NCBI RefSeq assembly: GCF_018476645.1
Contig: NZ_JAHCTB010000002.1
Span: 496,001-560,000, forward strand
Direction of reading: 5' to 3'
Source of the DNA: Aequorivita echinoideorum
GTDB taxonomy: Bacteria; Bacteroidota; Bacteroidia; Flavobacteriales; Flavobacteriaceae
Length of the DNA: 64,000 nucleotides
Positions within the stretch are counted from its first letter, which is position 1, and each line of letters begins with the position of its first letter. This document shows positions 1 to 14,040 of the stretch, piece after piece. Below the pieces are notes generated by a model. That model worked only from the letters and a program-made list of their open reading frames with translations, was not told the origin of the DNA and did not search any database. A program made the translations under genes and the position numbers.

Positions 1-300
1 AATTTTTATCAATTTACTTTCTTCAAGTATTTCAATATTCACAAGCAATTTGGGATTTTTTTCGGGATTGATCAACGCCAAAAATTTTACATTGGTTGAA
101 GTTGAAAGCCTTAATTTTTTTCCTACCGCCACTTCGGTCAATTCCTTTAAAATTTGAAGCATACAAACGCCCGGCATTACTGGATTTCCGGGAAAATGTC
201 CCGAAAAAATGAGATGCTCGGCATTTAAATTAAGATGTACGGAAATTCCGTTCTCTGTTTTTTCTTGTGTCGAAATGGAATATAAATCTTGGAACAGCAT
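1..300 (-). CDS. ApeI-like hotdog 3-hydroxyacyl-ACP dehydratase, 3' end beyond window
   Basis: Read directly from the reverse complement: an open frame of 100 codons starts with ATG at 300 and runs off the left edge. It carries FSGHFPGNPVMPGV at about residues 34-47, the hotdog-fold dehydratase signature of the FabA/FabZ/ApeI type; the catalytic His is in GHFPG. It begins one base after the stop of the lipoprotein gene, so it belongs to the same operon. In aryl-polyene and flexirubin clusters such a protein removes water from 3-hydroxyacyl-ACP so that conjugated double bonds form. The family call is firm; the exact substrate is inferred from context. Confidence 0.8.
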   Translation of the reverse strand, partial: MLFQDLYSISTQEKTENGISVHLNLNAEHLIFSGHFPGNPVMPGVCMLQILKELTEVAVGKKLRLSTSTNVKFLALINPEKNPKLLVNIEILEESKLIKI

Positions 301-301
301 T

Positions 302-928
302 TTATTCTTTTTTAAATTTTTCAAGCTCGATACGGAGCTTAAAATTTTCGTGCTGAAGCGTTATGCTTTGGGCAATATTTTCTTCTACAATTTTGAAATC
401 TATTGTTACTTTTTCCTTCCTTTTTGATGCTTTTACAATTTTTCGCAATCTTCGTGAATCTTTTTCAAAAAAATAAAAGCCAAAATTCTTTCCAATATCG
501 GTTTTGTAAATGTTTTGCGCTTCGGAATCAAATTCTTCCAAAACTTGAATCTTTTCAGAAATAAGCAGTCGGAAATCTTGTTCCAATGTTTTTACAACCA
601 ACTTTTTATCCATTTCCGGAATAATGAAATTCTTCTGAAAATTTTCTCCTTCAAAATAAAAATCGAAAAGTTTGCTCCCAAATTCCGTTGTAAAAACAAC
701 CCGGTGGCTGTCCGAGCCGGTCTTTTTAATAATTAATATGCCACCAAAATTTTTATCGTACAGTGCAATTTTGGCTTTGTAAACATAATCCACCTCAGCA
801 TTGGAAAAATAAGGATTGCTGATGGTAGGTTGAGCTACAGTAACTTCGCGCAATCCTTCCGTGGTTTTTAACGAACAGCCAGCGGTAACGAGAACAATGA
901 ATAGGCTAATTGCTAAAAACCGAATCAT
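302..928 (-). CDS. Lipoprotein of unknown function in the pigment operon
   Basis: 208 residues with a type II signal peptide: hydrophobic residues 4-16, then the lipobox VTAGC with the lipidated Cys at residue 18. The rest is a beta-rich, lysine-rich domain that I cannot assign by eye. Its start overlaps the end of lolA by 23 bases, and the ApeI-like gene begins one base after its stop, so it is embedded in the operon. Sitting next to a LolA homologue, it may be an outer-membrane acceptor or anchor for the polyene lipid, in the manner of LolB, but that is inference. No enzyme motif was seen. Confidence 0.75.
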   Translation of the reverse strand: MIRFLAISLFIVLVTAGCSLKTTEGLREVTVAQPTISNPYFSNAEVDYVYKAKIALYDKNFGGILIIKKTGSDSHRVVFTTEFGSKLFDFYFEGENFQKNFIIPEMDKKLVVKTLEQDFRLLISEKIQVLEEFDSEAQNIYKTDIGKNFGFYFFEKDSRRLRKIVKASKRKEKVTIDFKIVEENIAQSITLQHENFKLRIELEKFKKE

Positions 929-1535
929 CGATGGGAACGTTTAACTGCCTATTTTTAAAAATAATCTGGGTAAAATCCTTTGACGGCTCCACCATTTTTA
1001 CTTCAAAAACCTGTGCGTTTTCTTTATTGAAAAACAATTCAAAGGAAGCGATGTATTCAACCAATTTTTTATCTTTTGGAATAAATACAGCCTTGTAAAA
1101 CTGGGGACTTTCAAAGAAAGAAATTTCAAAATCCGCATCGCTGAACATATTTCCCCTAACACTATTGACAATAAGTTCATTCAGTTTTTGAAAAAGTTTG
1201 CTGCTGCCAATATCGACCTTGCTTTTAGTGCCACCATGGTTGATGAGCAATTGATCCTCCTTAAAAATCACACTATATTTATAGGGATTTGTATATTCCC
1301 ATTTTACCAAATTCGGCGATTTATAGGCCATTTTTCCCGAAGTTTTTACATCATCCGCCAAAAAATCGAGATGTTTTAATTGGATAAAATCAGCTTTAAT
1401 GGTTTTGGTTTTCTTGGCCTCAGCAATTACTTTTTCCTTGAATTTTGCTACCTCAGCACCATCCAAAATTGATTCTTGGGAATGTAAAGAAAGCGCAAAA
1501 CTGAAAAAAAATATCAAAAATAAAATGTTACGCAT
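906..1535 (-). CDS. lolA: LolA-family outer-membrane lipoprotein carrier
   Basis: About 209 residues. An N-terminal signal peptide (MRNILFLIFFFSF, cleaved near HSQ) is followed by a LolA-type domain: KADFIQLKHLDFL, SGKMAYKSPNLVKWEYTNPY and KVDIGSSKLFQKL match the family's half-barrel pattern. LolA ferries lipids or lipoproteins across the periplasm. The ATG at 1535 overlaps the stop of the upstream deacetylase as ATGCGTAA. A TTG nine bases further up is in frame but less likely. The location among fatty-acid-type genes suggests a dedicated carrier for the pigment lipid, not the housekeeping copy; this is inferred. Confidence 0.85.
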   Translation of the reverse strand: MRNILFLIFFFSFALSLHSQESILDGAEVAKFKEKVIAEAKKTKTIKADFIQLKHLDFLADDVKTSGKMAYKSPNLVKWEYTNPYKYSVIFKEDQLLINHGGTKSKVDIGSSKLFQKLNELIVNSVRGNMFSDADFEISFFESPQFYKAVFIPKDKKLVEYIASFELFFNKENAQVFEVKMVEPSKDFTQIIFKNRQLNVPIDDSVFSN

Positions 1536-2304
1536 ACGTATCAATTTTCAGGATTTTATCTACCGTGACAGGCTTCAATTCTTGAGTTTGCAAAAATAAC
1601 AATAACTGTTCCAATACGGCTACCGTTTTTGGGCCAGTGTCGTGGAGTAAAATGATGTCTCCTTTTTTTAAATCCGTTGTAATTCTTCTTAAAATCTTTA
1701 TTTCAGAAAGTTTTGTGGTATCAAAACTCCGCTTGCTCCAGCCTATAGAATGCATTTGTGTATCTGCTAATGCCTTTTTCAAGTTCGGATTTGTAACACC
1801 AAAAGGCGGCCGGAAAAATTTGGTTTCAATTCCACTAATTTCCTTCAAAATTGAATTCGTTTTTTCTATTTCAGAAGAAATTTTATTTGAAGAAAAAAAG
1901 CCAAAATTCCTTGAATGTGAATAAGAATGATTGCCAATAGCGTGACCTTCCGCTATAATCTGATTAACCAATTCTGGATGGTTTTCGGCATTTTTTCCGA
2001 TAAGAAAAAAAGTTGCTCTTGCATTGAATTTTTTCAGAAGTGCCAAGATTTTTGGAGTAAAAATGGGATGCGGGCCATCATCAAATGTTATGGCAATTTC
2101 ATTTTCAGTGATTCGGTGATTATGGCTGAAAGATTGAAAATGGTAATTCAAACCTATTTGAAATGAACCGATTGCAGTAATTATGGCCCAAATAATAATG
2201 AACAAAAAATACAGCCATAGCGAAACATTCCCAAAAATTCCAGCGAAAATTAGCATTGAAAATAATGCTATAGCAAGTGCATTGACTGTGTAGAATTTCA
2301 ACAT
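1528..2304 (-). CDS. Membrane-anchored polysaccharide deacetylase (NodB homology)
   Basis: 258 residues. Two hydrophobic segments at about 5-30 and 32-50 anchor the protein. The NodB domain follows with ITFDDGPHP (motif 1, metal Asp), HSYSHSRNF (motif 2, metal His pair), RPPFGVTNP (motif 3) and LLHDTG (motif 5 His), so the catalytic set looks complete. Family members remove N- or O-acyl groups from sugars. The stop overlaps the start of lolA and the start lies just inside the end of the chain-length-factor-like gene, so it is co-transcribed with the pigment genes. It may act on a glycosylated polyene or the anchor sugar; the real substrate is unknown. Confidence 0.85.
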   Translation of the reverse strand: MLKFYTVNALAIALFSMLIFAGIFGNVSLWLYFLFIIIWAIITAIGSFQIGLNYHFQSFSHNHRITENEIAITFDDGPHPIFTPKILALLKKFNARATFFLIGKNAENHPELVNQIIAEGHAIGNHSYSHSRNFGFFSSNKISSEIEKTNSILKEISGIETKFFRPPFGVTNPNLKKALADTQMHSIGWSKRSFDTTKLSEIKILRRITTDLKKGDIILLHDTGPKTVAVLEQLLLFLQTQELKPVTVDKILKIDTYA

Positions 2305-3365
2305 TTTTTAAGCAATACAAAACTGTGGTTTTCTCCACGATATTGATTATAAAGCAAGATATTTTTTATTTCGGAAGGAGCAATTTCGCCCATTTTTGCA
2401 ACTTCCGGGATTATCTGTAATTTCAAAATTTTTGAGGCCAGCCAAAACCCGAACGCGGAGGCCGTAAAAAATTCGCCGCACAAATGTTTGTAATAAATGC
2501 GATTTATTTTGTTTAGCATTCCATCCGCCAACGTGTGGAAATACACGTCAAACTTGGCATCGCCATTATTCCCCAAAACGGCTAAATCTATTTCATCGAC
2601 ATGTAAATCATTTGCTTTTAAAAACGCTTCGAGGTTATTTGGTAAATTTTCAACTGAAAGCGTGTTTATAATTTCAATAGCAGCCAATTCGGCATAACAA
2701 TTTATATTTTTTTGGTTGGATGTAATAAAAAAACTGGCACCCTCGCCAAAAATGGTTCCCTCACTTTTAGAGCGCAATAGTTGGGATGAATCAATTCGCT
2801 CAAATTTTATGTGCTTTATTTTCTCGTGAATTTTTAGGGTATGTTCCGTAAGTTCATCCACGCCGCCTACAAGTATTGAAGCGGCTTCGTTATTTTCAAG
2901 TTGAAGTTTAGCATCCAGCAAAGCAGATTCAAAAGAAACCGAACCGTGTACATATGTATTGTTATACCCAGTGCATTTCATTCCGAGAGCAATTTGGCCA
3001 GCAACGGTGTTGTGGGTGCTTTGGATAAAAGGAGTCGGGGTTAAAAATTCTTCACTGCTATCAATAATGGCGCTTACAAACTTGTCTGAATCAATCTTAC
3101 ATCCCAGTCCGGTCCCAATAATAATTGCGTCCAAAATTGAAGTTTCCGCATTATCTATCGCCATTTTTGATGCTGCCACGCTCATTTTTACGCCTTTAGC
3201 CATCCTGCGGGCGGATGCGGCAGGTATTAATTTAGTGTAATCCGGTTCCACCGCCCAAAAGACATTATCTGCAGTGCTTTGAATTTCTTCAAAAAACGAA
3301 CTATTCCCACTCGCTTTTTGGGCCGAAATACAAGCTGCACCATTAATGTATACTTTGCTTCTCAC
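2298..3365 (-). CDS. Chain-length-factor-like ketosynthase without catalytic residues
   Basis: About 355 residues from a GTG at 3365 that overlaps the stop of the preceding ketosynthase as GTGA. A TTG 30 bases upstream is the only other candidate. The fold is beta-ketoacyl synthase: GTGLGCKID, NTVAGQIALG and SILVGGVDEL are recognisable. The Cys of the usual STACSS nucleophile elbow is missing (VHGSVSFES), the first active-site HGT motif is replaced by NNGDAKF, and the GH of the second by GEFFTASAFG. All three catalytic positions are therefore lost. This pattern is typical of chain-length factors such as ApeC, which pair with an active ketosynthase, here probably the gene immediately upstream. 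Confidence 0.8.
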   Translation of the reverse strand: MRSKVYINGAACISAQKASGNSSFFEEIQSTADNVFWAVEPDYTKLIPAASARRMAKGVKMSVAASKMAIDNAETSILDAIIIGTGLGCKIDSDKFVSAIIDSSEEFLTPTPFIQSTHNTVAGQIALGMKCTGYNNTYVHGSVSFESALLDAKLQLENNEAASILVGGVDELTEHTLKIHEKIKHIKFERIDSSQLLRSKSEGTIFGEGASFFITSNQKNINCYAELAAIEIINTLSVENLPNNLEAFLKANDLHVDEIDLAVLGNNGDAKFDVYFHTLADGMLNKINRIYYKHLCGEFFTASAFGFWLASKILKLQIIPEVAKMGEIAPSEIKNILLYNQYRGENHSFVLLKKC

Positions 3366-4564
3366 GGCTGCTTCGTAAAAATTAATGTTGAACAATTACC
3401 TCCAAAGCCGAAAGAATTTGAAAGTACTGCATTCAACTCCTTATTTTTTGTTTCGGTCTGGGGAAGCAAGTGAAATTCCTTCATAGGAGTTTCAAAATTT
3501 AAATTGGGAAAAATAATATTGTGCTGCAAAGCCAAAACCGAAAAAACCGCCTCCACCGCGCCCGCCGCCGCTAAGGTATGGCCCGTAAAGGCTTTGGTAG
3601 AACTAAAACCTGGAATCGTATTTCCAAAAACACGAATCAAAGCGCGCCCCTCCGAAAGGTCGTTATTGCCCGTGGCAGTCCCGTGAACATTTACATAATC
3701 AATTTGGGACGGCAGCATTCCAGCCACTTTTAATGCTTTTTCCATAGCAAGTGTCGCGCCATCACCATTTTCAGAAGATGCGGTTTGATGAAAAGCGTCA
3801 TTTGCATTGCCGTATCCCTTCACATAAGCGAGTACTTTTTTATGCTCCTTTTCCACAATTTCATCGCTTTCCAAAACCAAATAGGCAGCACCTTCGCCTA
3901 AATTCAACCCATTTCTATTTTCATCAAATGGTGCACTGTGCGTATCACTTAAAATCATTAGGGTTTTGAAACCGTTTATTGTAAATTTTGAAAGCGAATC
4001 CGTTCCGCCAACTATAACTCGATCCAATTTGCCAGCTTTTATAAGCCTTGCGCCAAGCATAATAGCATTGGCTGCTGAAGAGCAAGCTGTGCTGATGGTG
4101 GTAACCAAACTTTGGGATATCCCCAATTGCTCCGCAATTTTTTGGGTGGAATCGCCCGCGGGGTGGCTGGTGATGTATTTCTGTGAATCACTTTCTGAAA
4201 GATAGTCATAGAAATATTTTTCGGTCATATCCATTCCTCCAACGCTCGTGGAACTGACGAGGCCGGTTCTATATTTTGATATATTAAAAATATTTGCGTT
4301 TGAAATAGCCTGCTTCGCAGCAATGGAACCGAGCATTGCGGTACGCGTATAGTTATTGTTGGACGGCAGATCCAACGGGGCCTCCAGTTGTGCGTTGGTA
4401 AGTTTTATCTCACCAACCATAATTTCATTTTTATGCGCGGTATCTAAAAGTTCAATTTTGGAAATGCCATTTTTTTTATGAATGAGCGCCTGAAAATTTT
4501 CTTCTGTATTGATTCCAATAGCAGATATAATTCCCATCCCGGTTATGGCCACGCCTTTGCCCAT
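3362..4564 (-). CDS. Beta-ketoacyl-ACP synthase (FabF/ApeO type), catalytic
   Basis: 400 residues, full family length. The catalytic triad is visible: Cys161 in STACSSAAN, His294 in NVHGTATGN and His329 in AFTGHTLAA, with the C-terminal NSFGFGGNC glycine loop. It condenses malonyl-ACP with a growing acyl-ACP. The chain-length-factor-like gene follows with a four-base overlap, the arrangement expected for a KS-CLF heterodimer that elongates polyenes. An ACP gene lies 14 bases upstream of its start. Family and activity are secure; the role in polyene elongation is inferred from the operon. Confidence 0.9.
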   Translation of the reverse strand: MGKGVAITGMGIISAIGINTEENFQALIHKKNGISKIELLDTAHKNEIMVGEIKLTNAQLEAPLDLPSNNNYTRTAMLGSIAAKQAISNANIFNISKYRTGLVSSTSVGGMDMTEKYFYDYLSESDSQKYITSHPAGDSTQKIAEQLGISQSLVTTISTACSSAANAIMLGARLIKAGKLDRVIVGGTDSLSKFTINGFKTLMILSDTHSAPFDENRNGLNLGEGAAYLVLESDEIVEKEHKKVLAYVKGYGNANDAFHQTASSENGDGATLAMEKALKVAGMLPSQIDYVNVHGTATGNNDLSEGRALIRVFGNTIPGFSSTKAFTGHTLAAAGAVEAVFSVLALQHNIIFPNLNFETPMKEFHLLPQTETKNKELNAVLSNSFGFGGNCSTLIFTKQP

Positions 4565-4578
4565 TTAGCTAATTTGAA

Positions 4579-4836
4579 TTATTTGGTCCTATTGGCTTCA
4601 ATGTAATCTGCCATTACCTGCACAGATTCAAAGATTTTTTTGCCTTCCTTTGGATCGCTCAATCTAATGCCATAATCCTTATCCAGCATCACTATAAGCT
4701 CCAATGCATCAATGGAATCCAGCCCTAACCCGTCACCAAATAAGGAATCGTTGTCATCAATTTCTGAAATAGTAACATCTTCCAGATTCAACTGCTCTAT
4801 GATTTTGGCCTTCAATTCCTGTTTTAAATCGCTCAT
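4579..4836 (-). CDS. Acyl carrier protein 1 of the pigment operon
   Basis: 85 residues, acidic, with the phosphopantetheine attachment motif GLGLDSIDALEL; Ser41 is the modified residue. ACPs of this type carry the starter and intermediates between ketosynthase, reductase and dehydratase. The ATG overlaps the stop of the upstream short ketosynthase-like gene by four bases (ATGA). A second ACP is encoded further upstream at 8546-8803, so the pathway has two carriers, as aryl-polyene clusters usually do. Which carrier serves which ketosynthase cannot be read from the sequence. Confidence 0.9.
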   Translation of the reverse strand: MSDLKQELKAKIIEQLNLEDVTISEIDDNDSLFGDGLGLDSIDALELIVMLDKDYGIRLSDPKEGKKIFESVQVMADYIEANRTK

Positions 4837-5450
4837 TCGTTGTAATATAAACTTTCTATTTTTTGAACCGTATGTGGAATTTCAGCATTTTTTTCAACAA
4901 GATATAGAAATGCTTTATAATCGTCCCCATCAAATTCCACCCAACCACACAGCACTTTTTCGGCTTTTTTTGTGCGGAGTAGATTGTGGGCATACAGCTG
5001 TAAATGCTCTGCATTGAACTTTTCAAAGATAAAAAAACTATTTTCAGAATACAGGCGGTGGCGTATACTTATCTCGCCCAGGCAAATATTGGGCAAAGTG
5101 TAAACAAAGACCGCCGGACTTGGAAAAATTGAACCTGAATTTTCAATTGATTTTTGATGTTTTCTATCCGTATCCAAGCTCGAAGCCCTGTTCGAAAAAA
5201 CCAGCGCAATATTATTTTTGTCAGCATCTAAATTTTCATTCTTCAGAATTATTTCTGCTGCTAAAAAAGCCAATTTGCTCAAGTTGTCCATTTTGAAAAA
5301 TTTTGGATATGAAATTTCAAAATGCCTGTAAGTTTCTTTGCTGAAGTTTGAAAAAATTTCGCTTTCAGTCGTGAAAATTGTATTGCCATTGAACATTACT
5401 TGGCCATTCTCAATTCGGCAAAAGGATTTTATAAAAAATTCCGCTCTCAT
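4833..5450 (-). CDS. Short ketosynthase-like protein (Ketoacyl-synt_2 type), no catalytic residues
   Basis: 205 residues, about half a ketosynthase. Segments such as SGSIFPSPAVFVYTLPNICLGEISI and KAEKVLCGWVEFDGDDYKAF fit the N-terminal half of the thiolase fold, where full enzymes have the GSP..F..T.PN stretch and the VGG motif. The nucleophile elbow between them (RLYSENSFFIFEKF) has no Cys. The protein ends before the second half of the fold. It overlaps the active ketosynthase upstream and the ACP downstream by four bases each, so its dose is tied to theirs. A scaffold or chain-length subunit is likely; an enzymatic role is unlikely. Confidence 0.65.
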   Translation of the reverse strand: MRAEFFIKSFCRIENGQVMFNGNTIFTTESEIFSNFSKETYRHFEISYPKFFKMDNLSKLAFLAAEIILKNENLDADKNNIALVFSNRASSLDTDRKHQKSIENSGSIFPSPAVFVYTLPNICLGEISIRHRLYSENSFFIFEKFNAEHLQLYAHNLLRTKKAEKVLCGWVEFDGDDYKAFLYLVEKNAEIPHTVQKIESLYYNE

Positions 5451-6613
5451 TTTTCAACCTTTTTAAAAATTGCAGCCGTATTGCAACCGCCAAAACCAGA
5501 AGCAGTTTTCAGAAAAATGGAAAGTGGTTTTTCAATATTTTCTGAAATAACATTTATTTTTTCTGAAACACCCAATTCATCAAAACCTTTGGATGCAAAC
5601 AACGTATTTCTTTCCAAAGAATGCATCCCGATAATGGTTTCCACTAAGCCTGAAGCGCCAAGCGTATGACCAAAATACCCTTTCAAACTATTAAGCGGCA
5701 CGTTTTGTATGCCCAGCCTGTTGAATGCAATCGCTTCCATTTCGTCATTGTAATCTGTTGCGGTGCCGTGGGCGGAGATATAATCCAACTGTGAAGCCTC
5801 AATTTTTGCCTCCTTCATCGCTAATTTTACACTTCTGTACAAACCTTCGCCCGTGCGGGACGGACCCGAGATGTGGTTGGCATCATTGCAGGTGGAATCA
5901 CCCAAAATTTCAACGGATTCACTGGGTAAGATTTCCTGCACGCCCGCAGACAAACTTTCGGAAGAGGTGACCAAAACACTCGCGGAAACTTCACCCAGAT
6001 TTATTCCGGTTCTGTTTTTATCGTACGGCCGGCACGGATTTGGCGATAATGCCTGAAAAGACTGGAATCCCGAAAGAACAAATTTTGAAACCAAGTCGCC
6101 ACTCGTTATAAAAACGTGATCGTATTTTTTTTCCGAAATGAATTTTTTGGCAACAGAAATCGCCAAAACACCAGAAACACAAGCGTTTGAAAGTATAATT
6201 GCTTCATTTTTGAATCCGAAAAAATTTTTTATGGTTTTTCCCAATTCGCTTAAATAGGCTCTTTCTTTTGGAAAATGTCTATTGTTTTCCAAAACATCTA
6301 TATTTCCTTTTGTAGTTGAAATTATAAGGCCCACTTTTTCGCCCAATTCAATTTTTGAAGCAGTGATTACTTTGGCTAACGAAAGAATCAGTAACTGTTC
6401 GAGTTTTTTAAAATTTTCAGCTTTGGAAATTTTATTGAATTCACTCTTTATTTTTTCTGAAGAAATGATGGACGCGCAAAATGGACTTGGCAATAATTCT
6501 GGATTATGAAATATTTTCAATCCAGAATTTCCATTTGAAATAGCATCAACTACGGCTTTACTGTCAAAGCCAAGACTCGAAATAATTTTATTATGTGTTA
6601 GAAAAAATCGCAT
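5447..6613 (-). CDS. Beta-ketoacyl-ACP synthase, catalytic
   Basis: 388 residues with an intact triad: Cys145 in LSNACVSGV, His282 in SAHGTATDYND and His316 in GYFGHTLGASG; the C-terminal loop is ASGFGGCN. The N-terminus (MRFFLTHNKIISSLG) lacks the usual VVITG strand and is somewhat shortened. It overlaps the short ketosynthase-like gene downstream (ATGA) and touches the thioesterase stop upstream by one base, so translation is probably coupled. It is one of three active ketosynthases in the operon. It could handle initiation or the alkyl side chain of a dialkylresorcinol, but that assignment is inference. Confidence 0.88.
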   Translation of the reverse strand: MRFFLTHNKIISSLGFDSKAVVDAISNGNSGLKIFHNPELLPSPFCASIISSEKIKSEFNKISKAENFKKLEQLLILSLAKVITASKIELGEKVGLIISTTKGNIDVLENNRHFPKERAYLSELGKTIKNFFGFKNEAIILSNACVSGVLAISVAKKFISEKKYDHVFITSGDLVSKFVLSGFQSFQALSPNPCRPYDKNRTGINLGEVSASVLVTSSESLSAGVQEILPSESVEILGDSTCNDANHISGPSRTGEGLYRSVKLAMKEAKIEASQLDYISAHGTATDYNDEMEAIAFNRLGIQNVPLNSLKGYFGHTLGASGLVETIIGMHSLERNTLFASKGFDELGVSEKINVISENIEKPLSIFLKTASGFGGCNTAAIFKKVEK

Positions 6614-7044
6614 TATTCAATCCCCATTTTTTCTTTCCAATCAGTAAAAAATGGAGGATTGGTCAGTGAAAGTTCGCCCTTATCATTCAAAAAAACCTGA
6701 ACGGTTTCGCCCGTGCAGACTAAATTTCCGGAGGGGTCAAAAATTTGGTATTTGAAGATCATTTTCGCCGCTGGCGAATTCATAAAAATGGTCTTTACCG
6801 TGGCAACATCGCCGTACCGCAGCGGCAATTTATGCTCGCAGGAAGATTTGACGATAGGTGAAGTAAAACCGTTTGCTTTTTGCTCCAAATACGAAATCCC
6901 AAACTTTCGCCCAAAAGCTTCGCGGCCGTCCTCAAAATATTGAATATAGTTGCCGTGCCAGACAATGCCCAAAGGATCTGTTTCAGTAAAACGCACCCTG
7001 ATTTTTGATATAAAGGAAAGTTCTTTTTTTTCTTTGGACTGCAT
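6613..7044 (-). CDS. 4-hydroxybenzoyl-CoA thioesterase family (hotdog) acyl thioesterase
   Basis: 143 residues. The motif TETDPLGIVWHGNYIQYFEDGREAFG at about 15-40 is the 4HBT/YbgC signature; the Asp in TDPLGIV is the usual catalytic residue. These enzymes hydrolyse acyl-CoA or acyl-ACP thioesters. In aryl-polyene clusters a thioesterase (ApeK-like) releases or edits chains. It lies 38 bases after the ApeP-like dehydratase gene and shares one base with the ketosynthase that follows. Substrate is not shown by sequence. Confidence 0.85.
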   Translation of the reverse strand: MQSKEKKELSFISKIRVRFTETDPLGIVWHGNYIQYFEDGREAFGRKFGISYLEQKANGFTSPIVKSSCEHKLPLRYGDVATVKTIFMNSPAAKMIFKYQIFDPSGNLVCTGETVQVFLNDKGELSLTNPPFFTDWKEKMGIE

Positions 7045-7082
7045 TTTTTCGTTCGTTATAATTCAAATTTTTCCTTGAAAAT

Positions 7083-7517
7083 CTATACGGCCAAAACGGT
7101 TTTCATTTCGCATTGCGCCATAATTTTTCCGTTGCATTCCACTTGGGCAGTAAGAACGGTAACGCCCATAATCTCGTGAAGCAATATTACGGTGGTTTCC
7201 AATTCTTCACCAACTTTTGGCAGGTCAAAAATTTCAACTTTTTTTATGGAACCAATATAGCCCGTAGGTGCATTTCCAGAGCTATCAAAATGCTTGCAGC
7301 CTGTGTGCAGCGCAGATGTCTGCGCCATGTTTTCAATGAGTCCGGCTTCAGAAAAAAATCCATTTTCCACCAATATATTTTCAGAATTCACGCTGAAACC
7401 AGAACGAATTTCCCGTTCCCCAAATTCCAAAAGCTTATCCACCATCACAAAGGGAAACTTCTGCGGAATAAGCTTTTCTATAAAATTTCTATCTGTAATT
7501 TTTTCTGAAAAATCCAT
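7083..7517 (-). CDS. ApeP-like 3-hydroxyacyl-ACP dehydratase
   Basis: 144 residues, hotdog fold. LIPQKFPFVMVDKLLEF at about 16-32 and FSEAGLIENMAQTSALHTG at about 54-72 match the FabZ/ApeP pattern, with Glu60 in the place of the catalytic acid of the family. With the ApeI-like enzyme at the left edge this gives the operon two dehydratases, as in aryl-polyene systems where the ApeI and ApeP partners form a heterodimer. A 125-base gap separates it from the acyltransferase gene upstream, and that gap holds a possible internal promoter. Confidence 0.85.
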   Translation of the reverse strand: MDFSEKITDRNFIEKLIPQKFPFVMVDKLLEFGEREIRSGFSVNSENILVENGFFSEAGLIENMAQTSALHTGCKHFDSSGNAPTGYIGSIKKVEIFDLPKVGEELETTVILLHEIMGVTVLTAQVECNGKIMAQCEMKTVLAV

Positions 7518-7571
7518 CGTTTAGCATTCAATCAAATTAATATAGCCGATTATTTTAGCTTTCAGTTTAGC

Positions 7572-7579
7572 CAAAAATA
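7572..7579 (-). promoter_or_regulatory. Possible -7 element of an internal pigment-operon promoter
   Basis: Read on the minus strand this is TATTTTTG, a match to the Bacteroidota -7 element TAnnTTTG, about 55 bases upstream of the ApeP-like start, in the longest intergenic gap (7518-7642) of the operon. I see no good -33 TTTG at the 19-20 base spacing. In DNA this AT-rich the motif alone has a notable chance of occurring randomly. Confidence 0.35.
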
Positions 7580-7642
7580 CGACAAATAGAATTGGGCGAT
7601 TATTGAAAACAGCGGTAATAATTGAACATTTAGGACAAAAAT

Positions 7643-8527
7643 TTAAAGTCTTTCCTTTTCCCAAAAATCAAAATAATTGAACCACTGCAGAGGATATTTT
7701 TCCAAAATGCCCGTAACGCTGGCAGTAAACTGATGCAGCAAATCTTCGGCATTTCCTTTTTTTACCTGCGCTGTTCTGGCGTAAAGATGGTAATGTTTGG
7801 ATTTTTCGCGCATTACGTAGACAAAAAGCACCGGCAAGTTCAAACGGGAAGCGATTGAAAACGGGCCCGCGGGAAACTTTGCCTTTTTTCCCAAAAAATC
7901 CGCTTTCATAAATTTTGAACCTTTTACGAACCGGTCGCCGGCGATACACAAAATTTCATTGTTGGCTAACGCCGAATTTATTTCGAAAATGTGCGACATA
8001 TCTTCCTTGAAAATAATAAATTTTGTACGGCTTTTTCTGAAAAATTGCTGCATATATTCTTTGATGGCCTGATGTTCTGCGTCTGAAATCAGCAATGTAA
8101 TTTTGGCATCCTCGGCCAATTCATCCAAGAAATAATCTGCAATTTCAAAATTACCAACGTGTGCGCTGATTAGAATTCCGCCTTTTTTCTGTTTTAAAAG
8201 ATTTTTTAGATTTTCAATACCGTCGAAATTATATGTGTATTTATTTCGAAGTCCACTGGAAATGGCGACTTTGTCTATGATGGTTTTTCCAAAGACCAAA
8301 TAATTTTTGAAGACGGAAATGGCACTTTTGAAAAAAGAATATTTCAATCTTTTTCTGAAGTAATAAAAAATAGAAGTTGTGCTCTTAACGGAAAAAATGG
8401 TATAATAAAATGCTACAAAAAATAGAAGCGCGTAAGCGGCATTGATTCCAAGATTTTTAAGGAGAAAAATGAAAATTTTATATCCAAATACGGTTCCCTT
8501 GCTTTTTCCTTCCCAATTGGCCGCCAT
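7643..8527 (-). CDS. LpxL/HtrB-like lysophospholipid acyltransferase
   Basis: 294 residues. A hydrophobic anchor at about 20-45 (LLKNLGINAAYALLFFVAFYY) is followed by the acyltransferase domain with HVGNFE at about 122-127, the HX4E/D catalytic motif of the LpxL family, and GDRFVKGSKF further on. Homologues in pigment clusters join the polyene acid to a resorcinol or lipid hydroxyl. It lies 18 bases after the second ACP gene, which could present the acyl chain. Housekeeping lipid A acylation is an alternative, but the position inside the operon favours the pigment. Confidence 0.87.
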   Translation of the reverse strand: MAANWEGKSKGTVFGYKIFIFLLKNLGINAAYALLFFVAFYYTIFSVKSTTSIFYYFRKRLKYSFFKSAISVFKNYLVFGKTIIDKVAISSGLRNKYTYNFDGIENLKNLLKQKKGGILISAHVGNFEIADYFLDELAEDAKITLLISDAEHQAIKEYMQQFFRKSRTKFIIFKEDMSHIFEINSALANNEILCIAGDRFVKGSKFMKADFLGKKAKFPAGPFSIASRLNLPVLFVYVMREKSKHYHLYARTAQVKKGNAEDLLHQFTASVTGILEKYPLQWFNYFDFWEKERL

Positions 8528-8545
8528 TGGATTTTATAAAATTTT

Positions 8546-8803
8546 TCAATTTATTTTCGCTTCAATAAGATTGTAAAAATCCTGAAGTGTGACTACGTTC
8601 ACAAAATCATCGCCCTTCAATTTCACGCCAAAGTTGGACTCGACGGCCACAACGAGATCCACGAAATCAAGGCTATCGAGCTCCAATGTTTCCTTTAAAT
8701 TTGCGCTTGGGTGGATATCATCTTTTTCCACTTCAAACTCATCAACCAAAAAGTAGTTTATCTTTTCAACTATCAATTCTCTATTCATTGCTACTAATTG
8801 CAT
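8546..8803 (-). CDS. Acyl carrier protein 2 of the pigment operon
   Basis: Up to 85 residues with the carrier motif LELDSLDFVDLV; the phosphopantetheinylated Ser is residue 44. The first ATG (8803) overlaps the upstream ketosynthase stop by ten bases. A second ATG at 8788 starts MNRELIVEKI, just after that stop, and is equally plausible. The sequence differs clearly from ACP 1, so the two are unlikely to be recent duplicates and may serve different ketosynthases. Confidence 0.9.
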   Translation of the reverse strand: MQLVAMNRELIVEKINYFLVDEFEVEKDDIHPSANLKETLELDSLDFVDLVVAVESNFGVKLKGDDFVNVVTLQDFYNLIEAKIN

Positions 8804-10011
8804 TTTTTAATTATTAATGCGGAATTGGTGCCCCCAAAACCGAAAGAATTTGACAAAAATACATCAATTTTTTTGTTTAACGTTTTGTTAACAAGGTTTA
8901 ATTGTGAAGCCGCCTCATCTGGGTTTTCAAGATTGACATTGGGTGCTATAAATGAATTTTCCATCATAATCATAGAATACACAATCTCGCTTGCACCTGC
9001 CATCCAGCACTCGTGTCCGGTCATTGATTTTGTTGAACTTACGTAAGGAAATGCTTTCCCAAAAACATCTGATATGGCCCGAGCCTCATTGGCATCGCCC
9101 ACAGGTGTTGATGTAGCGTGGGCATTGACATAATCAACTTTGGAGGCATCAATATTTGCCTGCTCCAGTGCCATTTTCATGGCGCGTGCGGGCCCATCAA
9201 TATTGGGCGTTGAAATATGATCGCCGTTGCTGGAAAACCCATAGCCAATTATTTCGCCTAAAATTGGTGCGCCGCGTTTTACCGCACTTTCATAGCTTTC
9301 AATAACCAACGTGGCTGCGCCGCCGCTGGGAACCAAACCATCCCGATCTCTATCAAAAGGTCGGCACGCCTTTAAAGGATCTGTTTTTGTTGAAAAGACC
9401 CCAAGCCCATCAAAACTTCCCATAGCCAATGTGTTGACTTCCTGTGCTCCGCCAGCAATTATGATGTCCTGCATTCCATTTTTTATAAGAAAATACGCCA
9501 TCCCAATGGAATGCGAACCGCTCGCACACGCCGCGCTGATGGTAAAGTTGACTCCTCTCAATTTAAAAATGGTGGAAAGGTTCATTGTAACCGTAGAATT
9601 CATCGCTTTAAAAATAGCCCCCGAACCTACCAAAGTTGTATCTTTCTTTTCGCGGATTTTATCCACTGATTCTATTACGGATTTTGTTGTGCTATCGTTT
9701 CCGTATAAAATCCCTACATCATTTGTGTCCAAAAAATGCTGGTCAATTTTTGCCTGCTGTAAAGCTTCGGCGGTTGCCGCGTACGCGTATGCCCCCTCTT
9801 CGCCCAAGCTTACACGCTGTCTTCGCGAAAGATATTCCTTTAAATCGGGTTCCTCAACCCACCCTGTAAGACAAGAGCGGTAGCCGAAATCCTTTCGGTC
9901 TTCAGCATATATGATTCCGGATTTTCCATTATACAGAGATTCTTTTACTTGCTCCTTATTCTTGCCAATGCAGGAGTAAATTCCCATTCCTGTGATAACC
10001 ACACGCCTCAT
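8794..10011 (-). CDS. Beta-ketoacyl-ACP synthase (ApeR/FabB-like), catalytic
   Basis: 405 residues with Cys162 in SAACASGSHS, His298 in NAHATSTPVGD and His333 in SMTGHECWMAGA, and the terminal NSFGFGGTN loop. The ATSTP form of the first His motif and GHECWMAGA are the FabB-like variant. This enzyme is therefore of a different subfamily from the two other active ketosynthases of the operon. It is followed immediately by ACP 2 and preceded by FabG (12 bases), making a compact condensation-reduction module. The precise elongation step is inferred. Confidence 0.92.
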   Translation of the reverse strand: MRRVVITGMGIYSCIGKNKEQVKESLYNGKSGIIYAEDRKDFGYRSCLTGWVEEPDLKEYLSRRQRVSLGEEGAYAYAATAEALQQAKIDQHFLDTNDVGILYGNDSTTKSVIESVDKIREKKDTTLVGSGAIFKAMNSTVTMNLSTIFKLRGVNFTISAACASGSHSIGMAYFLIKNGMQDIIIAGGAQEVNTLAMGSFDGLGVFSTKTDPLKACRPFDRDRDGLVPSGGAATLVIESYESAVKRGAPILGEIIGYGFSSNGDHISTPNIDGPARAMKMALEQANIDASKVDYVNAHATSTPVGDANEARAISDVFGKAFPYVSSTKSMTGHECWMAGASEIVYSMIMMENSFIAPNVNLENPDEAASQLNLVNKTLNKKIDVFLSNSFGFGGTNSALIIKKCN

Positions 10012-10023
10012 ATTCCGTTTCTT

Positions 10024-10773
10024 TTAAGAATAAATCCCCCCATTAATATTTATGACTTCGCCGGTAATATACGAAGCATTTTTTGAAGCCAAAAAACTTA
10101 CCAGATGGGCCACTTCCTCAGCCTCACCAAAACGATTCACGGGAATCATTTTTTTAAGTTCCTTTTCGTCAAGACCTGCGGTCATATCACTATTTATGAA
10201 GCCGGGTGCTACCGCATTCACCGTAATATTTCGTTTGGCAATTTCCTGAGCCAAAGCTTTTGTAGCGCCAACAACGGCTCCCTTTGCAGCGGAATAATTT
10301 ACTTGACCTGCCGTTCCTTTCAGTCCAGATACCGAAACCATATTGATAATCCTACCATATTTGTTTACCAGCATTTGCTGCATCAAATAATTGGTCACGT
10401 TGTAAAATCCATTTAAACTAGTGTTTAAAACGCTGTTCCAATCCTCGGATTTCATCCACACGAAAAGCCCGTCCTTATTGATTCCCGCATTATTGATTAC
10501 CACTTCAATAACAGCATTTTCATTTTTTTGAAACCAACCATCAAAAGTTTTTTGCACACTCTCCGCATTTGCTACATCAAATTTTAAAATTTCACCCTTT
10601 GTGCCAGCATTTTCTACTTCCTTTAAAGTTTCCAAAGCGGCGGCTTCGTTGTGATTGTAATTTATAAGAATTGAATACCCGGAATCTTTCGCAAGCTGAA
10701 TACAGATGGCACGACCTATTCCGCGCGAACCGCCGGTCACTAATGCATATTTCTTTTTTGGCTGTTTTTCCAT
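10024..10773 (-). CDS. 3-oxoacyl-ACP reductase (FabG-like SDR)
   Basis: 249 residues, classic short-chain dehydrogenase. TGGSRGIGRAI near residue 15 binds NADPH and NNAGINKDGL near 93 is the structural motif. The catalytic Ser (MVSVSG), Tyr and Lys (YSAAKG) are all present. It reduces 3-oxoacyl-ACP to 3-hydroxyacyl-ACP, feeding the dehydratases. It is the second gene of the operon, 62 bases after the ammonia-lyase. It could in principle also supply primary fatty acid synthesis, but the neighbourhood makes a dedicated pigment reductase more likely. Confidence 0.92.
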   Translation of the reverse strand: MEKQPKKKYALVTGGSRGIGRAICIQLAKDSGYSILINYNHNEAAALETLKEVENAGTKGEILKFDVANAESVQKTFDGWFQKNENAVIEVVINNAGINKDGLFVWMKSEDWNSVLNTSLNGFYNVTNYLMQQMLVNKYGRIINMVSVSGLKGTAGQVNYSAAKGAVVGATKALAQEIAKRNITVNAVAPGFINSDMTAGLDEKELKKMIPVNRFGEAEEVAHLVSFLASKNASYITGEVININGGIYS

Positions 10774-10835
10774 AAAATCTATGTGCTACAAAATTAAAAG
10801 ACGCTGAAAATTCAAAATTATAACTGCGCCTAAAA

Positions 10836-12362
10836 TTAATCTTCGGTTTCCATTAAAAACGCCTTGACTTTATTTACATATGGATACATTACTACATCTT
10901 CCGCAAAAACGGGCACTATTTTACGAATGTCCTCATACATTTTCTTTGTTTTTGAAGATATTTTATCTTGAACTTTCAAATATTCAATAGCCTGAACAAT
11001 GGCAATAATTTCAATAGAGATTACTTCGAAGGAATTTTCTATAACTTTCTTTGTGATAAGTGCGGCATTGGTTCCCATGCTTACCACATCCTGATTATCA
11101 TTATTGTTTGGAATACTGTGCACATACATAGGGTTGCTGAGCATTTGGCTTTCGGCTGTGGTTGATGTGGCGGTAAATTGTACGCCCTGCATCCCAAAGT
11201 TGAGTCCCAGCTTTCCCAAATTTACAAATGGCGGAAGCATCTCGTTCAATTTTGAATTCAACAGATAATTTAATTGTCTTTCAGCGAGCATCGTCATTTT
11301 TGCAATTACCATTTTCAGCTTGTCCATTTCAAGTGAAATATAGTCGCCATGGAAATTGCCCCCGTGATACACATTTCTTTTATCGACATCAATTATGGGG
11401 TTATCGTTCGCTGAATTCACTTCTTCAATCAGAATTTTTTCAACATTATTTATTGTGTCCAAAACCGGGCCCAAAATCTGGGGAACGCAACGAAGTGAGT
11501 AATATTCCTGCACTTTTTCGTGAAAAACCTCAACATCATTTGCACCATTATATAAGTGATGCTCACGTTTACGGGTCAAATGGCTATCGCTTAAATGGTC
11601 ACGCATTTTTGCGGCAATTTCCCGCTGCCCGCTATGTTTTTTAGCTTGGTTCAATTCGCTGCTCAAATGGTCATCGTAAGCATTCACAATCTCGTTGATT
11701 GCAGAAGAGCAAGCCACCATCCAGCGAAGCGCCCTCTTCGAATATAGCAAATTTACCGCGCCAATTCCAGACATTACTGATGTACCGTTCATAAGCGCTA
11801 ATCCTTCGCGAAGCTCAACTTTTATGGGTTGAAGATTTTCAGCTTTAAAAATTTCTTCAGTATTTTTTATTTCGCCTTTGTAAAAAACCTCGCCCTCACC
11901 AATTAAAACCAAAGCTAAATGAGCCAACTGCACAAGATCCCCGCTGGCGCCCACGCCGCCATGCTCATAAATAAGCGGAACAATATCTCTGTTCAGCAAT
12001 TCTGCCATCAAATGGATTACTGAAGGATGCACGCCGCTATGGCCCAAGCTTAGCGTATTGAGCCGCGCCAGCATAGCCGCCCGAACATATTTTTCAGAAA
12101 TGGGGTTCCCGGTGCCGGAAGCGTGGCTTCGTATTAAATTATACTGAAGCTGGACGCGCTCGTCGTCCTTAATTTTATATTGTGCCATGGGCCCAAAGCC
12201 AGTATTCACGCCATAGATTACTTTGTTTTCTGAAAATTCTTTCAAAAAATCAAAACTCTTGTGAACCGTTTCTACTGTATCTTTGTGGACTTGGACGGGC
12301 TGATTTTTAAAAATAACATCATAAAAATCTGCCAGTTCCAGTTTTCCTTTCAATATTGGCAT
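10836..12362 (-). CDS. Tyrosine ammonia-lyase (HAL/PAL family)
   Basis: 508 residues. Catalytic Tyr50 lies in IYGVNTGFG, and Ala139-Ser140-Gly141 in GGVGASGDLVQL cyclise to the MIO cofactor. The selectivity loop reads IRSHASGTG. From memory the sequence closely follows the Flavobacterium johnsoniae tyrosine ammonia-lyase of the flexirubin cluster, including NSANDNPIIDV and GNFHGDYISLEMDKL. The enzyme removes ammonia from tyrosine to give 4-coumarate, the aryl starter of flexirubins. It is the first gene of the operon and is divergent from the halogenase-like gene. Histidine ammonia-lyase is the alternative, but no other hut gene is nearby. Confidence 0.92.
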   Translation of the reverse strand: MPILKGKLELADFYDVIFKNQPVQVHKDTVETVHKSFDFLKEFSENKVIYGVNTGFGPMAQYKIKDDERVQLQYNLIRSHASGTGNPISEKYVRAAMLARLNTLSLGHSGVHPSVIHLMAELLNRDIVPLIYEHGGVGASGDLVQLAHLALVLIGEGEVFYKGEIKNTEEIFKAENLQPIKVELREGLALMNGTSVMSGIGAVNLLYSKRALRWMVACSSAINEIVNAYDDHLSSELNQAKKHSGQREIAAKMRDHLSDSHLTRKREHHLYNGANDVEVFHEKVQEYYSLRCVPQILGPVLDTINNVEKILIEEVNSANDNPIIDVDKRNVYHGGNFHGDYISLEMDKLKMVIAKMTMLAERQLNYLLNSKLNEMLPPFVNLGKLGLNFGMQGVQFTATSTTAESQMLSNPMYVHSIPNNNDNQDVVSMGTNAALITKKVIENSFEVISIEIIAIVQAIEYLKVQDKISSKTKKMYEDIRKIVPVFAEDVVMYPYVNKVKAFLMETED

Positions 12363-12427
12363 GAATGGGAATCAGTTAATTTGATTAAAACGCTGCTTTG
12401 CGAATTTGGGCACGAAACTTTAGATTG

Positions 12428-12435
12428 CAAATTTA
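12428..12435 (-). promoter_or_regulatory. Probable -7 element of the pigment-operon promoter
   Basis: On the minus strand the bases read TAAATTTG, an exact match to TAnnTTTG, about 66 bases upstream of the ammonia-lyase ATG inside the 101-base divergent spacer. No convincing -33 TTTG lies 19-20 bases further up, so the call rests on the -7 and on position. A run of A/T inverted repeats (about 12435-12460) lies beside it and could influence both divergent genes. Confidence 0.45.
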
Positions 12436-12463
12436 GAATTTTTTAAAAATTTAATTCTTAATA

Positions 12464-13714
12464 ATGAAGAATGATATTTCGGTGGATGTGTTGATTATTG
12501 GCGCGGGGCCTTCCGGCTGTGTTGCGGCGGCGTATCTAAACGGCAAGGGAATAAGCACAAAAGTGGTTGAAAAAAACAAATTCCCAAGATTTGTGATCGG
12601 CGAAAGCCTGTTGCCACGGTGCATGGAGCATTTTGAGGAAACTGGATTGCTTGACTGCCTGAAAGCAAAAAATTTTGAAGTAAAGGCAGGCGCACGGTTT
12701 TTGAAAGACGGGATGGTCTGTAATTTTGATTTCAGCAAAAAATTTACTTCAGGCTGGGATTATACGTGGCAAGTCCCTAGAGCCGATTTTGATAATACCT
12801 TGGCTCAAGAAATCATTAAAATGGGCGTCGATGTTTCTTTTGAAGAACAAGTAACCGAAGTGAATATTGACGAAACCGGAAATTCATGTACAAACGTTGT
12901 AAATGTTGAAGGTAAATCCTATAAAATCAACGCCAAATTTATAATAGACAGCAGTGGTTTTGGCAGGGTTTTACCCAGATTGCTGGATCTTGACAAACCT
13001 AGCGTTATACCGAAGCATTCTGCCATTTACACCCATATTGCTGAAACCGAACGACCCAAGGGCACCGAAGGCACGCTGATTACATTTGATGTGGTCACGG
13101 ATACGTGCTGGCTCTGGGTTATCCCATTTTCAAATGGCACTACCAGCATCGGTTTTGTGGGACCTTCAGATTTTATTGAGAGTTTCAAAGGGAATGCTGC
13201 GGAAAAACTAACGGAAATGCTGAAACTTTCAGAATATTATTATGATCGTTTAAAAGAAAAACCATTTCTCTTTGAACCCCATATAATCAAGGATTATTCA
13301 AAAGCGGTAAAATCCATATTTGGAAAAGGTTTTGCACTTACAGGAAACAGTGCCGAATTTCTGGATCCGGTTTTTTCGTCTGGCGTTACCTTTGCCACAG
13401 AATCTGGATTATTGGCTGCAAAACTCATCACGAAGCAGTTAAACAATGAAAAAGTTGATTGGGAAAAAGAATACGAAGAATATATAATGAAGGGTGTTGA
13501 TGTTTTTAGGACCTATGTGAATGAATGGTATACAGGAAATCTTCAGAAGATATTTTTTCACCCCATTGAAAATCCAATTATAAAATCGCAAATATGCTCT
13601 GTACTTGCGGGTTATGTTTGGGATGAAAAAAATCCATTTGTAAAAAACCATAACAGACTGGTAAAAACCGTGGCGCAGTATGTGGAAATGGAAAGGGAGT
13701 CTTTGCTGAATTAA
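12464..13714 (+). CDS. Flavin-dependent halogenase-like oxidoreductase
   Basis: 416 residues. IIGAGPSGCVAAAYL at 11-25 is the FAD-binding GxGxxG motif. FPRFVIGESLLP at 40-51 is typical of tryptophan/phenol halogenases. Lys74 in EVKAGARF aligns by eye with the halogenase Lys that carries the chloramine. WLWVIP at 216-221 fits the WxWxIP motif. LDPVFSSGVTFA at 300-311 is the conserved FAD-domain segment. Divergence from the flexirubin operon suggests it chlorinates the phenol ring of the pigment, since chlorinated flexirubins are known. Non-halogenating monooxygenases share much of this pattern, so activity is not proven. Confidence 0.8.
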   Translation: MKNDISVDVLIIGAGPSGCVAAAYLNGKGISTKVVEKNKFPRFVIGESLLPRCMEHFEETGLLDCLKAKNFEVKAGARFLKDGMVCNFDFSKKFTSGWDYTWQVPRADFDNTLAQEIIKMGVDVSFEEQVTEVNIDETGNSCTNVVNVEGKSYKINAKFIIDSSGFGRVLPRLLDLDKPSVIPKHSAIYTHIAETERPKGTEGTLITFDVVTDTCWLWVIPFSNGTTSIGFVGPSDFIESFKGNAAEKLTEMLKLSEYYYDRLKEKPFLFEPHIIKDYSKAVKSIFGKGFALTGNSAEFLDPVFSSGVTFATESGLLAAKLITKQLNNEKVDWEKEYEEYIMKGVDVFRTYVNEWYTGNLQKIFFHPIENPIIKSQICSVLAGYVWDEKNPFVKNHNRLVKTVAQYVEMERESLLN

Positions 13715-13766: not shown

Positions 13767-13775
13767 CGTTTTTTG

Positions 13776-13848
13776 TTGGCCCACTAGGGCTCGAACCTAG
13801 ACTCTTCTGGACCAAAACCAGACGTGTTGCCAGTTACACCATGGGCCA
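13776..13848 (-). tRNA. tRNA-Gln (anticodon TTG)
   Basis: 73 bases fold as a cloverleaf on the minus strand. The acceptor arms TGGCCCA and TGGGCCA are followed by discriminator A. The anticodon stem TCTGG/CCAGA closes the loop TTTTGGT, giving anticodon TTG for Gln (CAA). The T arm is CTAGG-TTCGAGC-CCTAG. The CCA end is not encoded. It stands alone between the halogenase-like gene and the DUF2723 gene, with its own promoter and terminator. Confidence 0.95.
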
Positions 13849-13865
13849 ATTCCACAATGAGGTGG

Positions 13866-13896
13866 CAAATTTAATACAAACTTTGGCTTGTACAAA
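13866..13896 (-). promoter_or_regulatory. Promoter of tRNA-Gln
   Basis: On the minus strand, TTTG (13893-13896), a 19-base spacer and TAAATTTG (13866-13873) match the Bacteroidota sigma-A consensus TTTG-N19-TAnnTTTG exactly. Transcription would begin about 8-10 bases before the mature tRNA 5' end. Confidence 0.8.
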
Positions 13897-14040
13897 TTTT
13901 TCTTTCAAAAAATTGCGGTTTCTTTTTTCCATTGGCAAATCCTTCAAAAATAACATTACCTAAAGTACGTTACTCCATATAAATAAGTGCATCTATTTAT
14001 ATTATTAGTAAATTCGCGGCAAGAAAATTTTTAAGCATCT

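Follow-up and report, generated by a model that had tools for sequence, protein, structure and literature searches.

FlxK, a widespread halogenase-like flavoprotein encoded beside a flexirubin-type aryl-polyene operon

Chlorinated flexirubins are known, and the introduction of PMC3992019 places their chlorine in the polyene half of the pigment. According to the accessible part of PMC5932025, aryl polyenes become flexirubin-type pigments where resorcinol proteins are present. In the open literature searched we found no paper assigning the chlorinating enzyme of flexirubins and none on 'chloroflexirubin', and the accessible parts of PMC12565237, PMC12584681, PMC9248904, PMC11187115, PMC8269204, PMC11237725 and PMC9764358 hold nothing on such an enzyme. 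Here we analyse a stretch of 64,000 nucleotides from Aequorivita echinoideorum, the window in what follows (G000:C20:496001-560000; genome 2.93 Mb, 27 contigs, completeness 99.96 percent), in which a compact flexirubin-type aryl-polyene operon on the minus strand (1-12362) stands divergent from a plus-strand flavoprotein gene, flxK (12464-13714). We propose that FlxK is most likely a flavin-dependent halogenase of carrier-protein type.

The name derives from the Chitinophaga pinensis cluster. In a genome that we took as this species (G654), 25 places match the flx letters of PMC3992019, with ketosynthases at C, I, L, N and O, dehydratases at F and S and the ligase at Y; flxO, hidden by greedy gene picking, was placed by position. 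Gene 11 of that cluster encodes a flavoprotein 48 percent identical to that of the window, with all of its motifs, and lies directly after the gene best matching the FlxJ queries (an NCBIfam name; one of the three queries lay above the cut-off, two below). Judged by sequence, the divergent gene of the window is the ortholog of gene 11, whose letter K is given by gene order. Neither 'halogen-' nor 'FAD' is used in the accessible main text of PMC3992019. The gene and its landmarks are:

12464-13714, plus strand: FlxK, halogenase-like flavoprotein, 416 amino acids (Pfam Trp_halogenase and FAD_binding_3, PDB 3NIX, C. pinensis gene order)
12683-12685, plus strand: Lys74 codon, at the halogenase lysine position (orthologs, solved halogenases)
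13109-13126, plus strand: WLWVIP, residues 216-221 (ortholog alignment)
13361-13384, plus strand: LDPVFSSG, residues 300-307 (LDP[VI]FSSG in 112 of 112 orthologs)
12363-12463, no strand: intergenic region of 101 bp separating the divergent flxA and flxK (open reading frame positions, locus comparison)

A preliminary description of this DNA had singled out Lys74, WxWxIP at 216-221 and LDPVFSSG, all of which do lie in the 416-residue open reading frame. Ortholog counts were made on 112 non-identical sequences, one per locus, scoring at least 300 bits, with weaker or duplicate ones dropped. Lys74, W216, W218, P221 and DP[VI]FSSG are present in every one, as are G13, G15 and G18 of the GxGxxG motif for flavin adenine dinucleotide (FAD); I220 is present in 111. 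The same description had called for an alignment with halogenases: the Lys74 column is Lys in 5/5 solved halogenases and WxWxIP is likewise present in 5/5, whereas either feature is found in 0/8 more distant family members, which were taken from the sampled genomes and are known by sequence alone. The lysine is needed in characterized halogenases, as judged from the K83A mutant of BrvH (PMC5945002) and the K87A mutant of PltM (PMC6424973), and WxWxIP has been suggested to prevent monooxygenase action (PMC5945002). In profile searches FlxK matches Pfam Trp_halogenase at 91 bits (cut-off 21) and FAD_binding_3 at 64.5 bits, and its top PHROGs match is a tryptophan halogenase. The NCBIfam CmlS profile scores 162.9 bits, far under its cut-off of 900, and the GG-red-SF profile 113.9 bits, under its cut-off of 158.8; among the 25 of 54 matched NCBIfam families listed there is no FlxK model.

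Solved relatives point in the same direction as the motifs. The top one is PDB 3NIX from Cytophaga hutchinsonii, matched over its full length (E 7e-138). Cytophaga hutchinsonii is said to make a chlorinated flexirubin, a piece of background not used as evidence here. The 11 solved sequences ranked behind 3NIX, which reach down to E 2.5e-11, all belong to halogenases: PltA, CndH, Bmp2 and its mutant, FasV, CmlS, ChlB4, Mpy16, RadH and two PltM entries. Only then comes a geranylgeranyl-reductase-type entry (E 8.5e-10), and two Chitinophaga FlxK orthologs give the same ranking. A FlxK model built from 20 sequences (predicted local distance difference test score, pLDDT, 89.8) superposes on 3NIX with Z 56.9 and a root-mean-square deviation (rmsd) of 1.3 over 405 aligned residues. 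The next fold is PltA, over residues 3-414 (Z 43.2, rmsd 2.8, 404 aligned), followed by ChlB4 (Z 42.9, rmsd 2.7, 399), the Bmp2 mutant (Z 42.5, rmsd 2.9, 386), Mpy16 (Z 42.5, rmsd 3.0, 396), FasV (Z 41.5, rmsd 3.0, 384), RadH (Z 38.6, rmsd 2.8, 399), CndH (Z 38.0, rmsd 4.1, 370) and PHBH (Z 35.6, rmsd 3.1, 368). On sequence and predicted fold, the nearest relatives of FlxK besides its ortholog 3NIX thus appear to be halogenases. In the first tree, which took in five solved halogenases, the 17 FlxK rows form one clade (100/100), grouped with these five and with two halogenase-like genomic rows (97/96); within the group FlxK adjoins the Bmp2 mutant (96/84). This tree carries a long-branch warning. 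Two FlxK-bearing genomes hold a second halogenase-like gene (L199, G192:C13; L207, G601:C20) with the Lys and DPIFSSG, and with W.W..P in L199 and W.F..P in L207. Both were drawn first as outgroup and shifted to the halogenase side for the second tree after their motifs had been inspected.

The distribution of FlxK was followed in an order draw of 296 genomes and a phylum draw of 325; the draws overlap, and related genomes should not be counted as separate events. FlxA lies above its cut-off in 84 order genomes and FlxK (E <1e-110) is found in the same 84, the next match after these being at 1.8e-36. The two genes are divergent with a gap of <400 bp in 76 genomes, divergent within 10 kb in six, far apart in one and on different contigs in one. 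FlxK behaves like a core gene of FlxA-bearing genomes, and the idea of a strain-specific decoration gene was rejected on this co-occurrence. Exceptions appear more widely. In the phylum draw FlxA is found in 29 genomes and FlxK in 27 (G384 and G505 have FlxA alone). Of 80 named loci listed, several of them short fragments, 32 were searched genome-wide, giving a FlxK match in 29; FlxK was not found genome-wide in Mucilaginibacter sp. BT774, M. agri or M. corticis. In Niabella hibiscisoli the FlxK match falls into two pieces with a TGA (G588:C1:1357008-1358218), possibly a natural loss, and within 10 kb at its locus L125 none of the other flx genes searched was found besides FlxA and FlxB. FlxJ-like proteins (E up to 1e-60) occur in 9/296 order genomes, none above the curated cut-off, and in 13 of the 14 named loci, among those listed, that have both, FlxJ is no more than 1.5 kb from FlxK. 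DarB (E up to 1e-80) is present in 79/296 order genomes, 77 of them over the cut-off, and in 78 of the 84 with FlxA. The remaining six, the window's among them, all keep FlxK, which therefore tracks the polyene half, the part known to bear chlorine. One DarB in this sample is in two pieces with a TGA (G067:C1:3280889-3282020) and may be a decayed copy.

The operon opposite flxK reads as follows, with letters by order taken from the C. pinensis cluster:

10836-12362, minus strand: FlxA, tyrosine ammonia-lyase (NF053541, 894 bits, cut-off 700)
10024-10773, minus strand: FlxB, reductase (NF053542, 413 bits, cut-off 340)
8794-10011, minus strand: ketosynthase, FlxC by order (Pfam, catalytic residues, gene order)
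8546-8803, minus strand: acyl carrier protein, FlxD by order (PP-binding)
7643-8527, minus strand: LpxL-type acyltransferase, FlxE by order (PF03279)
7518-7642, no strand: 125-bp gap, where Aequorivita vladivostokensis has darA-darB (locus comparison)
7083-7517, minus strand: FabZ-like dehydratase, FlxF by order (NCBIfam FabZ 41.6 bits, under cut-off 113)
6613-7044, minus strand: 4HBT thioesterase, FlxH by order (PF13279)
5447-6613, minus strand: ketosynthase, FlxI by order (Pfam, catalytic residues)
4833-5450, minus strand: ketosynthase-like protein, FlxL by order, no catalytic residues detected (NCBIfam, residue patterns)
4579-4836, minus strand: acyl carrier protein, FlxM by order (PP-binding)
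3362-4564, minus strand: ketosynthase, FlxN by order (Pfam, catalytic residues)
2298-3395, minus strand: ketosynthase-like protein, FlxO by order, no catalytic residues detected (Pfam, residue patterns)
1528-2304, minus strand: polysaccharide deacetylase, FlxP by order (PF01522)
906-1544, minus strand: LolA2-type carrier of flexirubin type, LolA by Pfam (NF053544, 257 bits, cut-off 125)
302-928, minus strand: LolB2-type protein of flexirubin type (NF053540, 245 bits, cut-off 60)
1-324, minus strand: second dehydratase-like gene, interrupted by the window edge (open reading frame list)

The identification as a flexirubin-type aryl-polyene operon is supported by the flexirubin polyene genes FlxA, FlxB and FlxY, the last outside the window (722 bits, NCBIfam cut-off 520), all of which exceed their curated cut-offs. 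The preliminary description had already seen an operon of this type, opened by a tyrosine ammonia-lyase, and its gene list is correct: Pfam and NCBIfam recover the carriers, reductase, thioesterase, acyltransferase and lipid-carrier genes, and both dehydratases are there, one under its cut-off and one cut by the edge. Its three active ketosynthases carry Cys-His-His (8794-10011, 5447-6613, 3362-4564), and residue patterns found no such residues in the ketosynthase-like 2298-3395 or the 205-residue 4833-5450. Where that description fell short is in extent, as the operon runs about 10.5 kb beyond the window edge (G000:C20 about 485.5-496 kb, L004), with genes for a GT2-DUF2062 protein, an MMPL-acyltransferase, a desaturase-like FAD protein, a cupin_8 protein, a C45-type acyltransferase and FlxY. 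The cupin_8/JmjC-type gene (L004:12490-13362, minus strand; G000:C20 about 488.5-489.4 kb) has no match in the 11 fetched and 80 named flx loci listed. In iron/2-oxoglutarate halogenases HxG or HxA replaces HxD; this protein retains HxD (HYD in translation) and was ruled out as a halogenase. On the other side, flxK is followed by a tRNA-Gln and a gene for a 1108-residue membrane protein (window 13775-17367), and in A. vladivostokensis (L147) by a 1107-residue protein with a near-identical N-terminus, which makes close kinship of the two organisms probable.

The word 'dialkylresorcinol' in the earlier account has to be withdrawn for this genome. In the window genome the top DarB match reaches 26 bits, leaving it outside the 79 DarB genomes, DarA has no match at E up to 1, and the search of the order genomes for the FlxJ methyltransferase found none here. 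The same DarA query finds DarA in L147 (56 percent), a locus with the same flank and order as the window, in which darA-darB separate the FlxE gene from the FlxF gene, with BtrH/ABC genes after; in place of darA-darB the window has the 125-bp gap. Loss of darA-darB in the window genome is the simpler reading, because 78/84 FlxA genomes have DarB. Two candidates for a displaced DarB, a KASIII at C20:221598 and a type III polyketide synthase (PKS)-like gene at C22:340366, do not come up with the DarB query even when E up to 1 is allowed; the latter fits DpgA under the cut-off. A second cluster on the same contig as the latter (L090:4854-10260, minus strand, G000:C22) encodes a geranylgeranyl-reductase-like FAD protein, a methyltransferase, a short-chain dehydrogenase/reductase, a dehydratase and a ketosynthase, together with a type III PKS-like gene, DpgA-like under the cut-off. 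With DarA, DarB and FlxJ not found, the pathway is expected to yield an aryl polyene with neither a methyl group nor resorcinol; as aryl polyenes turn into the flexirubin type where resorcinol proteins occur (PMC5932025, accessible part), it should be an aryl polyene only and not a flexirubin.

What would FlxK do in this pathway? FlxA would convert tyrosine to coumarate, FlxY would ligate it to coenzyme A, and the chain would be extended on carrier proteins. At FlxK, hypohalous acid would form from reduced FAD, O2 and halide and would be guided by Lys74 onto the carrier-bound aryl polyene, at the carbon ortho to its phenol hydroxyl; the activity, the halide, the ring position and the timing are all part of this proposal. 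In the window strain the product would be a halogenated (4-hydroxyphenyl)polyene, unmethylated and with no resorcinol. Considering gene content, orthology, motifs, predicted fold and co-occurrence, we think it probable, with real room for doubt, that FlxK is a functional halogenase acting on the phenol ring of the polyene.

Several observations weigh against this assignment. The C. pinensis flexirubin, although FlxK of that species keeps every motif, is C43H54O4, a formula without chlorine, the stated medium being LB with 5 g/l NaCl (PMC3992019, accessible text). A lack of FlxK in that species was considered as the cause and rejected, as G654 has the gene and so do 59/60 genomes of the genus group of C. 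ginsengisoli (the Chitinophaga genus group). FlxK occurs in 84/84 FlxA genomes as against 9/84 for FlxJ, and this far greater constancy makes it unlike an optional decoration. Residue 295 is Asn in 112/112 FlxK and Asp in 15/15 other aligned rows. The Pfam Trp_halogenase match by itself says little, because 5/14 control genomes match too. CmlS, a halogenase, scores no better in fold (Z 35.0) than PHBH. The preliminary description had named an alignment placing the gene in a non-halogenating monooxygenase clade as what would overturn its halogenase reading. The first tree does not place FlxK with the non-halogenase homologs, but once three long rows are dropped its branching order is lost, and a polytomy of FlxK and the halogenases also takes in two non-halogenase-like homologs. 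Chlorination is still the best single reading, plausible but challenged by C. pinensis, whose mismatch could come from the halide preferred, from regulation, from cryptic halogenation or from a change of role.

The last two of these lead to a second explanation, which we regard as possible but clearly the less favoured: that FlxK is a flavoenzyme descended from halogenases and now serving a constant function in every flexirubin-type pathway, either independent of halide (for instance redox chemistry on the phenol or polyene) or adding a halogen that is later lost, so that halogen would not have to be present in the finished pigment. Its constancy with FlxA, its presence in nearly all of the Chitinophaga genus group beside a chlorine-free C. 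pinensis pigment and its invariant Asn295 fit such a role, as does Azoarcus, where an annotated halogenase, arcA, goes with a halogen-free pigment, C41H52O4 (PMC3949708). Against it, all 112 orthologs retain the whole halogenase signature with its Lys, FlxA genomes without FlxK exist (2/29 in the phylum draw; 3/32 named ones, all Mucilaginibacter), and chlorinated flexirubins are known. Tentatively, FlxK may be a fixed core enzyme in which the halogenase active site is complete and conserved, yet at least one producer ends up with a pigment lacking the halogen, through cryptic halogenation or a repurposed site. That FlxK halogenates something other than the pigment polyene, such as free tyrosine, coumarate or a signal, as PltM does beside PltA with a product that is a regulator and not a pathway intermediate (PMC6424973, accessible part), would suit its frequent divergent transcription unit (76/84 within 400 bp) but is very improbable, as named Chitinophagaceae loci have it inside the biosynthetic operon beside FlxJ and its closest folds include carrier-dependent PltA. 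The deposited name of 3NIX, the grouping of the C. hutchinsonii protein with halogenase-related oxidoreductases (PMC4859513, accessible part) and the GG-red-SF score might instead suggest an ordinary flavin reductase, dehydrogenase or monooxygenase; this is just as improbable, given a higher CmlS score (itself far under cut-off), the lack of Lys or WxWxIP in the eight other homologs and the halogenases among the closest folds.

Under the halogenase reading, comparison singles out FlxK as the candidate chlorinating enzyme and, if this is true, gives a role to the orphan structural-genomics entry 3NIX. FlxK is a widespread enzyme with the signature and the predicted fold of a carrier-type halogenase, and the C. 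pinensis mismatch cautions against inferring halogenated products from motifs alone; a core enzyme whose halogen is not retained would, if real, be a widespread exception to the rule that leads from motif to halogenated product. From the window cluster, where DarB, DarA and FlxJ were not found, a simple pigment is predicted, on which the action of FlxK could be read free of a resorcinol or methyl group.

How does the locus stand beside known systems? Among solved proteins 3NIX is the FlxK ortholog, bearing in the PDB only the name Flavoprotein/dehydrogenase. PltA, ChlB4, CndH, Bmp2 and Mpy16 are near to FlxK in fold at about 24-28 percent identity. PltA, CndH and Bmp2 share its Lys, WxWxIP and DPxFSSG and have Asp where FlxK has Asn295; the substrates of PltA and CndH are carrier-bound (PMC5945002). 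The Azoarcus arcuflavin cluster, likened by the annotation of ArcA, is another aryl-polyene cluster in which a gene annotated as a halogenase accompanies a pigment free of halogen. The flexirubin clusters of C. pinensis and F. johnsoniae have FlxA, FlxB, FlxY, ketosynthases, carriers and Lol-type proteins in common with the window, whose genome differs in the extra cupin_8 gene and in having no detected DarA, DarB or FlxJ. C. pinensis has FlxJ and carries flxK inside the operon between flxJ and flxL, whereas in the window flxK is divergent from flxA; the gene set around it is otherwise the same.

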